A stretch of 64,000 nt of DNA from Paucibacter sp. TC2R-5 (GTDB lineage: Bacteria; Pseudomonadota; Gammaproteobacteria; Burkholderiales; Burkholderiaceae_C). The notes beneath the pieces were generated by a model, which was not told the DNA's origin, searched no databases, and was given only the letters and a program-made list of their open reading frames with translations. The translations under genes and the position numbers were made by a program. This document shows, in pieces, positions 42,986 through 46,142 of the stretch. The stretch lies in contig NZ_JAJIRQ010000001.1 of assembly GCF_025717605.1 (NCBI RefSeq), positions 1 through 64,000 on the forward strand, in the 5' to 3' direction. Each line of letters opens with the position of its first letter. Within the stretch, counting starts at the first letter, position 1.

Positions 42986-44659
42986 TCAGAAGTCCACCGC
43001 CCGCGTGCGCATGCCGCGCGCGATCAAGGTGGCGTTGATCAGCTGAGCCTCCTCGCGGCTGGCAAAAGGCCAGACCGCCGGGCGCCAGCCTTCGGGTGTT
43101 TGAAACACCTGCGCCTGCAAGGCCGCACCGCCGGCCCCGCCTTGTTGCGGGGACAGCATCGCCCGCATGCGAGCCAGGGTGGCTTCTGCATCGGCCTTGT
43201 TGGCGCTGATGGGTCCGACCAGGGCAACCACGGGTTTGTTGGCCAGGGCGGCCGCCTTGGCGATGGCCTTGCCGCTGGGAGGCGCAGTCGTCGCTGTCTC
43301 TGTTTTGCCAGCTGGCGTGGTCGCGGCGGGCGTCGCTGCCGAACCATTCTGCGCGGCTGTTTCGCTGCCTTCCGAGCTCAGTTTGGGCTTGTGGACATGA
43401 GCCAGCGCAGACTTGGCCTTGGGTTTTGGCGGCTCCTCTTGAGGCGGCTCGGGCTGGGCTTTCAGGTCGGCAGCGGCCTTCTTGTCCTCCGGCTTCTTAT
43501 CTTCTTTTTTGGCCTCATCGGGCTCGGCCAGTTGCGCCTGCTTGGGCGGCGCGCCCAGCGGCGGCGCTGTGCGGCCCGGAATAGGTTTGACGAACATCGG
43601 CCGGATGTCCGGTTTCAGCATGCTGGGCTCTTCCGGCGATGCTGCTTCTTGGGGTGCGGCAGCAGTGCCCGTTACTGCTGCAGATGCCGCTGCTGAGGCC
43701 ACGGCCCCGCTGCCATCGACGCTGGTGGCGTTCAGCGGTGTCAGTGGCAAGCCTGCCGGCGCAGTGCTTGAGGCCGCTTCTGAAGCGGCTTGCGGTGGCG
43801 CAGAAGCCTCTTGAGGGGCGGGCAGCGGGGCAGGCGGGGAGGCCGCAGCCGAGGCGGACGTTGCCGCAGCCGAAGCAGCGGGGTCCGGGCCCAAGGCCGG
43901 ATCCGCTTTCTTCGCGCTGGGCAGCAGCAGCCCAGCGCCTGCGCCCAGCAAAGCCAGCAGCAGCAAGGCGACCAAGGCCAAACGGCGCGGGCTCAAACAG
44001 CGGCGCCCGGTGATGGCCGGCTGGCGGCCTCGGCCCAGCAAGATGCGGCTGCGCGAGCGGCCGGCGTCTATCGCAGCGCTCATCACATAGAGCTCGAAGG
44101 GCCAAGCGCCGCCACCTTTTGAACCGGCTTTCCCGTCGCTGTCCATCAGTGTCTCGTCGATCGGAATGATGCGCTGCGGCCAGGATGCATCGCCGGGTTG
44201 GCTGGTGTAGCCATGCGCTTGTGCGAACGCGGCAATCCGTTTGGGCGACAAATGGCTGACAAAGCGTTCGCTGAACACCGGCCAAGACTTGGCCTCTGTA
44301 GCGCTTGGCTTGCGCCAAAAAGCGAATCGGCTCAACCGTTCGCGCCAAGCTGGCTGGCCTTGCTTGGGCGGCGGCTCTTGGTCAGCGAGCGCGTCGAGGT
44401 GGGCGGCGTTGGGGTCTACCGCTATCGTCAGGCCTTCCTCATCCCAGGCGGCCGCCAAGCTCTCGGGCGAGATCTCATCGGTCAATACCGGCTCGACCTT
44501 GCCCTTGGCGCCGCGGCCGCGGGCGGCCGCATCGGCTTGCGCGTTGCGCATGAACGGCAAAGCCACGACGCCAATCGTGTGGACGTCGTAAATGGTGATC
44601 CGTTTTGCAAGGGGGTGGCGGTTATGCCATGCCACCACCTGCTCGGCCAGTCGATCCAT
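42986..44659 (-). CDS. Single-pass membrane protein with C-terminal SPOR-like domain
   Basis: About 557 aa, not a named family to me. A cytoplasmic N-terminal part with FAFWRKP and a YVMSAAIDAGRSRSR segment precedes one membrane helix at about 230-250 (LALVALLLLALLGAGAGLLL). A long Ala/Pro/Ser-rich, then Lys/Glu-rich linker follows. The last ~85 residues (VVALVGPISANKADAEATLARM, then WRPAVWPFASREEAQLINATL) have the paired pattern of a SPOR peptidoglycan-binding domain; this is inference. A TTG at 44713 would extend it by 18 residues. It converges on argJ with an 11-base gap. Confidence 0.65.
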   Translation of the reverse strand: MDRLAEQVVAWHNRHPLAKRITIYDVHTIGVVALPFMRNAQADAAARGRGAKGKVEPVLTDEISPESLAAAWDEEGLTIAVDPNAAHLDALADQEPPPKQGQPAWRERLSRFAFWRKPSATEAKSWPVFSERFVSHLSPKRIAAFAQAHGYTSQPGDASWPQRIIPIDETLMDSDGKAGSKGGGAWPFELYVMSAAIDAGRSRSRILLGRGRQPAITGRRCLSPRRLALVALLLLALLGAGAGLLLPSAKKADPALGPDPAASAAATSASAAASPPAPLPAPQEASAPPQAASEAASSTAPAGLPLTPLNATSVDGSGAVASAAASAAVTGTAAAPQEAASPEEPSMLKPDIRPMFVKPIPGRTAPPLGAPPKQAQLAEPDEAKKEDKKPEDKKAAADLKAQPEPPQEEPPKPKAKSALAHVHKPKLSSEGSETAAQNGSAATPAATTPAGKTETATTAPPSGKAIAKAAALANKPVVALVGPISANKADAEATLARMRAMLSPQQGGAGGAALQAQVFQTPEGWRPAVWPFASREEAQLINATLIARGMRTRAVDF

Positions 44660-44708
44660 GGATGCGGTTGTTTTGGGGATTGAGATAAAAGGGCCGCTTG
44701 AAAGCCTG

Positions 44709-44749
44709 TGCAACGATCATTGGCAGTGCGCTGCACGATCAATCGGCAG
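44709..44749 (+). repeat. Two 18-base imperfect direct repeats upstream of the sigma-54 promoter
   Basis: 44709-44726 and 44732-44749 share TGCA..CGATCA..T..GGCAG with a 23-base offset, roughly two helical turns. They lie about 150-190 bases before the predicted start, where enhancer sites of sigma-54 activators usually are. The divergent gene at 44659 could instead be the target. Confidence 0.45.
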
Positions 44750-44871
44750 ACCCCGTCATGGTGCCTGAACTCTAAGCCCTGCGGCAGCGCTGAGGTCAGA
44801 GTTGATAGCAGGAAAAGAAGGGGAAAAGCAAATGCCAGCGTGCCTGACCTTCAATTCGAGCGTCACAAGCC

Positions 44872-44888
44872 TTGGCACGCGGCTTGCA
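44872..44888 (+). promoter_or_regulatory. Sigma-54 promoter (-24/-12)
   Basis: TTGGCACG-CGGC-TTGCA: exact match to TGGCACG-N4-TTGCW with GG and GC ten bases apart. Predicted transcription start is near 44899. Confidence 0.75.
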
Positions 44889-44902
44889 TAGCTTGCTCAT
44901 CT

Positions 44903-45337
44903 ATGAACGCAGTGCATGCCCACTTCCCAGACAGTGACCCCGCCATCGACGCGCCACGCGCCGCCTTGGATGCTTTTGGCTATGCCTGCTTGACCGTCGC
45001 GCAGGCCGACGGACGCTGCCTGTGGCGCAGCCCTTTGGCGCGCCGTTTAATGGCGGAGTACTTTATTGGCGGGCACTTCGAGAGGGGTTTTTTGCCGCCG
45101 GAGTTGCTGCTGTGGCTGCACCGGGAGGCGCTGCGGCGGCGTGCGGGCGCGCCGGCTCAGGACTTGACGGTCTTGGCGCAAACCCCCAGCACCTACAACC
45201 CCACCATGTCTGCCGCCCATGTGCCCAGCAATGCGCGCAAGCGGAGCCTGAGCAAGCGCCTGAGTTTCAGGCTGCACGAGGCGGATGCCGCCACGATGGG
45301 CGAAGGGCAATGGTTGATCGTGATGAGCGATATTTGA
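44903..45337 (+). CDS. PAS-like domain protein resembling the N-terminus of a LuxR regulator
   Basis: About 144 aa, no firm family. DAFGYACLTVAQADGRCLWRSPLARRL, LPPELLLWLHREAL and a final LSFRLHEADAATMGEGQWLIVM resemble the sensory half of single-protein LuxR regulators, which normally continue into a DNA-binding helix-turn-helix. Here the frame ends after IVMSDI and no HTH is found in any frame before the next gene. It may be a stand-alone sensor or a decayed regulator. The ATG at 44903 lies only about 4 bases after the predicted sigma-54 start and has no ribosome site. Confidence 0.5.
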   Translation: MNAVHAHFPDSDPAIDAPRAALDAFGYACLTVAQADGRCLWRSPLARRLMAEYFIGGHFERGFLPPELLLWLHREALRRRAGAPAQDLTVLAQTPSTYNPTMSAAHVPSNARKRSLSKRLSFRLHEADAATMGEGQWLIVMSDI

Positions 45338-45467
45338 CGGACCTTGGTGTGTAGCTGTGGCCGCGCCTTCTTGGTGCGTGCCGCCGCACCTTGGTGCGCG
45401 GTGCTTGCAGTGGAGGCGGTCGCACTTGCGACAGCGCTTCCTCCCTCTTGCCCTCATGATGTGAGGC

Positions 45468-46142
45468 ATGGGAACTCTCTATCTCGTCCGCCATGGTCAG
45501 GCCTCCTTGGGGGCGTCCGATTACGACCAACTCAGCCCGCTCGGTGAGCAGCAATGCCGCCTATTGGGCGAGTATTGGCGCAGCCGCGGCCTGCGCTTTG
45601 ATGCGGTCTTGTGCGGCGGTATGAAGCGCCATGCGCAGTCGCTGGCCGCCATAGCCGAGGGCTTGGGGCAAGCCGAGTTGCCGGCAGTGCAGCGTCGCCC
45701 CGGTTTGAACGAATATGACAGTGAGGCCTTGATCCGCAGCGTGTTCAGCGGGCCGTTGGACAGGCCGCGCGACGCGGAATCAGCGCGCCAGTATTTCCGC
45801 CTGCTGCGGGCAGGCCTGCGGGCTTGGATGTCGGGCCAGACCGAGCCCGAGGGTATGCCAAGTTACGCCGAGTTCTCGGCCGGCATCGCCGCCGTGCTGA
45901 CCGAGGTGCGTGAGCAATGCGAGGGTCAGGTCTTGCTGGTGTCCAGCGGCGGGCCCATTTCCAGCGCTATCGGTCAGCTCTTGCAAGCGTCCTGCGAGGC
46001 CGTCATTGACCTGAATCTGCGCATCCGCAATAGCGCGGTCAGTGAATTCAGCTTCGGGCCTAAGCGCCACGCCATGCTGACCTTCAACACTGTGCCCCAT
46101 CTTGATTCGCCTCAGGGTCAGGCCTTGATCACTTCTGCCTAG
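45468..46142 (+). CDS. Histidine phosphatase superfamily protein, second catalytic His replaced
   Basis: About 224 aa. The RHG motif LVRHGQAS with nucleophile His9 is intact, and CGGMKRHAQSL follows. The position normally occupied by the second catalytic histidine (VSHGG) reads VSSGGPIS, as in a subset of related proteins. Activity is therefore uncertain. Substrate unknown. GAGG precedes the ATG. Confidence 0.82.
   Translation: MGTLYLVRHGQASLGASDYDQLSPLGEQQCRLLGEYWRSRGLRFDAVLCGGMKRHAQSLAAIAEGLGQAELPAVQRRPGLNEYDSEALIRSVFSGPLDRPRDAESARQYFRLLRAGLRAWMSGQTEPEGMPSYAEFSAGIAAVLTEVREQCEGQVLLVSSGGPISSAIGQLLQASCEAVIDLNLRIRNSAVSEFSFGPKRHAMLTFNTVPHLDSPQGQALITSA

Follow-up and report, generated by a model that had tools for sequence, protein, structure and literature searches.

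Within the window analysed here (64,000 nt, positions 1-64,000 of contig NZ_JAJIRQ010000001.1 of Paucibacter sp. TC2R-5), an open reading frame (ORF) of 144 aa at 44903-45337 on the + strand starts directly behind a sequence resembling a sigma-54 promoter. This arrangement raises the question whether the promoter is genuine, how it came to lie so close to a start codon and which role a small stand-alone protein may have under such control.

A pattern scan of the window revealed an exact match to TGGCACGNNNNTTGCW at 44873-44888 on the + strand. In this -24/-12 element, TGGCACGCGGCTTGCA, the GG and GC dinucleotides lie 10 nt apart in a TGGCACG-N4-TTGCW context; the exactness claimed in the earlier note was confirmed, and the position given there (44872) was corrected. 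The window contains no other match with 0 or 1 mismatch and 18 with 2. As the total of 19 matches at up to 2 mismatches is the number expected by chance (mean 21.8), only the exactness of the site at 44873-44888 is unusual. The whole genome (G000; 5.13 Mb) holds four exact matches versus none for a reversed-pattern control. Two of the other three copies (L100 and L102) precede an AAGGAG-type ribosome site followed by an ATG; behind the third (L101) an ORF starts, by reading of the sequence, 82 nt after the first base of the element. The genome encodes RpoN (TIGR02395 match over cut-off) and, also above cut-off, NtrC.

The transcription start (+1) was set by a rule of position only, 12 nt downstream of the C in TTGC, which predicts a start at 44899 on the + strand. 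From the end of the element to the ATG at 44903 the distance is 14 nt, and the predicted leader is 4 nt, so that the message would strictly be near-leaderless rather than leaderless. No Shine-Dalgarno-like match was found in the 20 nt before 44903, the putative start codon. An upstream in-frame start, GTG at 44708, was rejected because the ORF would then cross the promoter; in L032, a stop codon abuts the ATG.

A homologue search matched 154 of 299 genomes. We distinguished B-type genes, the close homologues of the window ORF, from A-type genes, a paralogous kinase-regulator copy. B-type homologues were detected in 14 of the 18 genomes of the genus group; outside the genus, 14 genomes were fetched for the B set (12 with E ≤1.3e-37, plus G257 and G326). 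Among the relatives compared are a Roseateles MAG and Paucibacter sp. B2R-40. In the set of 28 B-type loci, 11 have a kinase gene, 15 have none, and two, L098 and L099, were excluded from all counts of 26; the seven A-type loci comprise one from outside the genus (G018) and six from within it. The element of each locus was taken as its best-scoring upstream place. At L093 the choice was restricted to a stated string, and the site has 0 mismatches.

Of the 28 B-type loci, 26 have GGCAYG-N4-TTGC upstream of the B-type gene; in L098 and L099 the element is degenerate. Conservation of the -24/-12 element in close relatives had been named beforehand as one observation on which the promoter would stand or fall, and the element was kept. 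It is present at all 26 regulators counted, with 2 copies elsewhere in the 693,190 strand-bases of these loci. GG, C, A, G and TTGC are invariant across the 26 loci, the G being preceded by C or T, and the first T of the element is replaced by C in two. On the regulator's strand, GGCAYGN4TTGC was absent from all seven A-type loci. The gap between element and start codon (start codons chosen by hand) measures 13-15 nt in 15 of the 26 loci, 21-26 nt in six and 50-66 nt in five. A predicted leader of 3-5 nt in 15 of the 26 loci supports the near-leaderless ORF start that had been proposed for the window; the gaps of 50-66 nt in the other five show that near-leaderlessness is not universal.

Eleven of the 28 B-type loci, those of G016 and G017 and of nine genomes from other genera, carry an intact gene for a hybrid histidine kinase (about 1140 aa) ahead of the regulator gene. 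The N-terminal part of the kinase is long and hydrophobic by hydropathy, with no Pfam match at E 5 and no PDB sequence match at E 1. In all 11 loci the -24/-12 element falls within the last kinase codons, encoding VARALQ as GTG GCA CGS GCC TTG CAR. The codon alignment of the 11 kinases has 93 invariant Ala columns and 120 invariant Leu columns; GCA is used throughout at one of the former and TTG at one of the latter, both inside the element. GCA makes up 1-9% of the Ala codons and TTG 2-20% of the Leu codons (counted in 10 of the 11 kinases, without L088). The remaining columns of the same kinase genes served as the control for codon fixation, and shared ancestry was handled to that extent. 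As GCA and TTG are fixed only in the element, protein constraint is insufficient, and selection on the DNA as a promoter explains the pattern. This position also accounts for the short gap, since the kinase gene of the complete operon ends near the regulator start or overlaps it, with the promoter in the last kinase codons.

The element is kept in 15 loci (12 Paucibacter, 3 other genera) whose fetched flanks contain no such kinase; outside the genus, these flanks are the basis for calling the kinase absent. Here the sigma-54 consensus positions are invariant while spacer and flanks vary, and in some of these loci the frame relation of the element to the start codon has changed. Conservation of the element as a peptide was rejected as an explanation because the loci differ in the frame that the element has with respect to the start codon. 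G011 and G002 have kept the flanking genes and lost the regulator, and GGCAYGN4TTGC was absent from the 12.0 kb (G011) and 5.1 kb (G002) fetched at these loci. They provide the empty-locus evidence; G008 (no histidine-phosphatase match) and G013 (contig end near) were uninformative. The proposal of a sigma-54 promoter upstream of the ORF is borne out by conserved position and codon-level constraint. Judged from these sequence comparisons, the window element is likely a genuine sigma-54 promoter with ancestry in a kinase-regulator operon, and it would be expected to be active in vivo.

The earlier note had further described two 18-base direct repeats 23 bases apart as enhancer-like sites. TGCAACGATCATTGGCAG (44709-44726) and TGCACGATCAATCGGCAG (44732-44749) do start 23 nt apart, but they are imperfect, with 11 of 18 positions identical ungapped, and need gaps to be aligned as repeats. 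They are missing from the automatic repeat listing of the window; aligned with gaps, they outscore the best repeat of any of 30 shuffled versions of the region. Upstream of the gene in all four relatives tested, the repeats were unrecognisable (p 0.09-0.41). A role as enhancers was rejected on this lack of conservation.

An upstream block, ATGGTGCCTGAACTCTAAG (44758-44776), is partly conserved and represents either a candidate enhancer or part of the promoter of the divergent gene. TGCCTNAANT occurs in 7 and GAASTMT in 10 of the 12 kinase-less Paucibacter loci, with at least one of the two in all 12, and neither was found upstream in G011 or G002. A second block, TTGAT..GAAAAG-like (44801-44835), was seen by eye in the alignment. 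Both blocks lie in the stretch that separates the B gene from the divergent gene and are absent in G011 and G002; they may be activator sites and may equally belong to the divergent gene. The latter is a long ORF on the - strand (42986-44713) that probably starts with the ATG at 44659 and matched no Pfam or NCBIfam family. Short imperfect repeats, CTTGGTGCG, lie at 45338-45398, just past the end of the window ORF. NtrC as activator would be a natural guess from the urea link described below; in the window, NtrC-like sites did not rise above the locus background (fraction 0.73), nor did they in the 11 kinase-bearing loci (fraction 0.23-1.0). They exceeded the background in L039, L040, L042 and L043 (fraction 0.02-0.04) and weakly in L086 (0.07).

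Searches with the window ORF revealed no Pfam or NCBIfam family at E 0.1, including no PAS profile. The AlphaFold2 model of the protein (mean pLDDT 77.3) displayed a PAS-like order of elements, and the best 50 of 286 Foldseek matches in the PDB were mostly PAS, LOV or PYP (best E 0.013, no match at E ≤0.001); the PAS-like domain covers residues 27-143 (44981-45331, + strand). In a PDB search with alignment A1, the best 60 of 336 matches were of response-regulator or other receiver type, with one designed protein, and none of these matched on the middle domain alone. The full-length B-type protein (L037) consists of a receiver, a middle domain and a LuxR-type HTH. Both the receiver domain with its phospho-acceptor Asp and the GerE-type HTH, which is present in L037, are absent from the window ORF. 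By homology, the ORF corresponds to the PAS-like middle part of a response regulator with receiver/middle/LuxR-HTH architecture, the PAS assignment itself being weak. The description as the sensory half of a LuxR regulator without its DNA-binding part was accurate for the missing HTH, but the domain is the middle of a response regulator and not a one-component sensor.

The middle domain alone is encoded by the window ORF and its relatives in G004, G005 and G001. These four stripped copies, all with intact promoter, form one clade with a support of 100/99 (middle-domain tree, 35 rows, 123 columns), on which parsimony gave one change for receiver loss, three for HTH loss and three for kinase loss. 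The proteins of G006 and G012 have no receiver and end in an HTH-like part; L034 (G012), the one of the two that was searched, gave no Pfam match for it. All six receiver-bearing kinase-less Paucibacter proteins have A or E in place of the phospho-acceptor Asp, and L097 has G; the Asp is kept in L086 and L095. The HTH was lost separately in other lineages, with the middle domain kept. Outside Paucibacter, HTH-less regulators with the middle domain were seen in L086 and L095 (genus g135) and in L099 (genus g151). Between the stripped copies, dN/dS was 0.063-0.163 for the six pairs compared (L041, L042 and L043 left out), at a dS of 0.85-1.36, which is near saturation, and no stop codons were found within them. 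By this estimate, with dS near saturation, purifying selection acts on the stripped core.

A- and B-type kinase-regulator operons are divergent from ureA (urease gamma). By peptide pattern, ureA was found beside all 7 A-type loci, all 11 kinase-bearing B-type loci and the kinase-less L095 (as part of a longer frame in L088 and L096), and it was confirmed by NCBIfam at L045, L037 and L095. In L095, ureA directly adjoins the kinase-less regulator gene. A homologue of urtA (urea uptake) lies downstream in the fetched flank of G017, G156, G000, G004 and G010, with NCBIfam support for L037. In all 7 A-type loci (L044-L050), GGCAYGN4TTGC is located 11-73 nt upstream of ureA on the ureA strand (minus), 73 nt in the window's genome (L045), and the urease of these loci is probably sigma-54-controlled. 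The kinase genes are preceded by related elements with 2-3 mismatches to the consensus, for which our claims are weaker: GGCAC[GA]N4CTGCW occurs 11-16 nt before the ATG of the A-type kinase in 7/7 loci (L044-L050; 9 matches in 180,014 strand-bases), and a TTGAT-ending variant (GGCAYG..TTGAT) 11-13 nt before that of the B-type kinase in 11/11 loci (L037, L038, L087-L094 and L096; 12 matches in 228,304 strand-bases). The TTGAT form is odd as a -12 element.

In the window's genome, ureA lies beside the A copy (contig C12) and not within 15 kb around the B copy. Ten of the 12 Paucibacter genomes with a kinase-less B gene encode an A-type regulator and an A-type kinase that shares 75% identity or more with the G000 kinase; the A-type kinase of G001 is split over two contigs. 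G009 and G014 (the latter 79% complete) have the B gene and only a more distant kinase, 51 and 56% identical to HK-A. A further, more distant kinase of this type, 51% to HK-A, was seen in two Paucibacter genomes (G003:C28:7359-10688 and G009:C2:311737-315087). G016 and G017 have an intact B system and no A match. With the A system in 10 of the 12 genomes with a kinase-less B gene, and an intact B system in G016 and G017, B decayed mainly where A is present.

These data suggest the following history. In the complete operon, the promoter in the 3' end of the kinase gene would give the downstream regulator gene a transcript of its own, beginning a few nucleotides before the regulator start codon. 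In the Paucibacter/Roseateles B copy the kinase has been lost, with promoter and regulator retained. The regulator has been stripped, losing the phospho-acceptor Asp, then in some lineages the receiver, and then the HTH, an order that we infer. The window probably shows the last stage of this reduction, a PAS-like protein standing alone, whose message would be RpoN-dependent and nearly leaderless. Activator-dependent transcription would begin at about 44899, with induction through RpoN, perhaps upon nitrogen limitation. The protein could pair with the PAS-like domain of the paralogous A-type regulator RR-A, or compete for its ligand, and so tune the urea response. This RpoN-induced tuning through the paralogue, modelled on TrlR and CerN, is a tentative proposal for the job of the protein.

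Two readings would deny the locus a present function of this kind. The -24/-12 match could be a fossil of the coding sequence for the kinase C-terminus (VARALQ), the ORF being transcribed from elsewhere or not at all. The element does code for a conserved peptide in 11 loci, and the stripped copies descend from such a kinase-bearing locus; the peptide, however, leaves the fixed rare codons GCA and TTG unexplained, and the consensus positions stayed invariant amid varying spacer and flanks in the 15 loci without the kinase. Nor did a simple scan for sigma-70-like promoters, from which the ORF might otherwise be transcribed, give any within 44600-45500. We regard the fossil as very improbable. 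That the gene is in decay, with the PAS-like core as the last part to go, would fit the stepwise loss of domains and the disappearance of the whole regulator from G011 and G002, but the stop-free stripped copies with dN/dS of 0.06-0.16, their four intact promoters and the separate loss of the HTH in lineages that kept the middle make decay unlikely.

Less easily set apart is the reading that the protein is a sensor or partner with a target outside the paralogous urea system, for instance another regulator or a second-messenger enzyme. The window ORF is 41% identical to RR-A over the alignment, G009 and G014 retain the B gene with only a distant kinase, and the window gene no longer adjoins urease genes, all of which would suit such a target. 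Against it stand the intact A-type kinase and regulator retained in 10 of the 12 genomes with a kinase-less B gene, and stripped regulators such as TrlR and CerN, described in PMC11655674 as acting on full-length kin. A target outside the urea system is about as probable as the tuning of the urea response, and neither is more likely than not.

The reading preferred here, an RpoN-controlled modulator derived from a response regulator, joins features of which intragenic sigma-54 promoters and HTH-less regulators are each known separately. The majority of E. coli sigma-54 sites are intragenic, according to passages of PMC4591121, which describe conserved intragenic promoters in nagB, rlmD and yqeC with 5' UTRs of 360-760 nt. 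The promoter described here resembles these in being a conserved sigma-54 promoter within one gene that would drive the next. It differs in the predicted leader of 3-5 nt in 15 of the 26 loci and in having outlived its host gene. TrlR and CerN are described in part of PMC11655674 as HTH-less LuxR-family regulators that antagonise full-length kin, and the likeness lies in a regulator without a DNA-binding domain alongside such kin. Unlike these proteins with their autoinducer-binding domains, the protein of the window is PAS-like, of two-component origin and has also lost the receiver; antagonism here would be by analogy. The kinase, with its long hydrophobic N-terminal part and paired response regulator, recalls the transporter-like histidine kinases with paired regulators CrbS/R, CbrA/B and RpuS/R (PMC9100948); it differs from them in an N-terminus without Pfam or PDB sequence match and in the urease-linked locus. 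In Sinorhizobium, start sites of sigma-54 and leaderless mRNAs have both been mapped (PMC3616915). The combination of a promoter outliving its host gene, a stripped two-component regulator and a short leader did not turn up in a few searches of open-licence PMC papers, judged by title and the opening of the abstract.

The locus offers a comparative case, at codon resolution, of a gene-embedded sigma-54 promoter selected for itself: rare codons were fixed while the element lay inside the kinase gene, and key positions stayed fixed after the kinase was lost. Living intermediates suggest a path by which a response regulator may turn into a protein of one domain, and the locus lends itself to a compact test of the ability of sigma-54 promoters to drive near-leaderless messages. 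For Paucibacter, it is a rather doubtful suggestion that a regulator without kinase, receiver and HTH persists as a PAS-like modulator of the paralogous urea system, whose surviving promoter and near-leaderless message would link nitrogen status to urea sensing.
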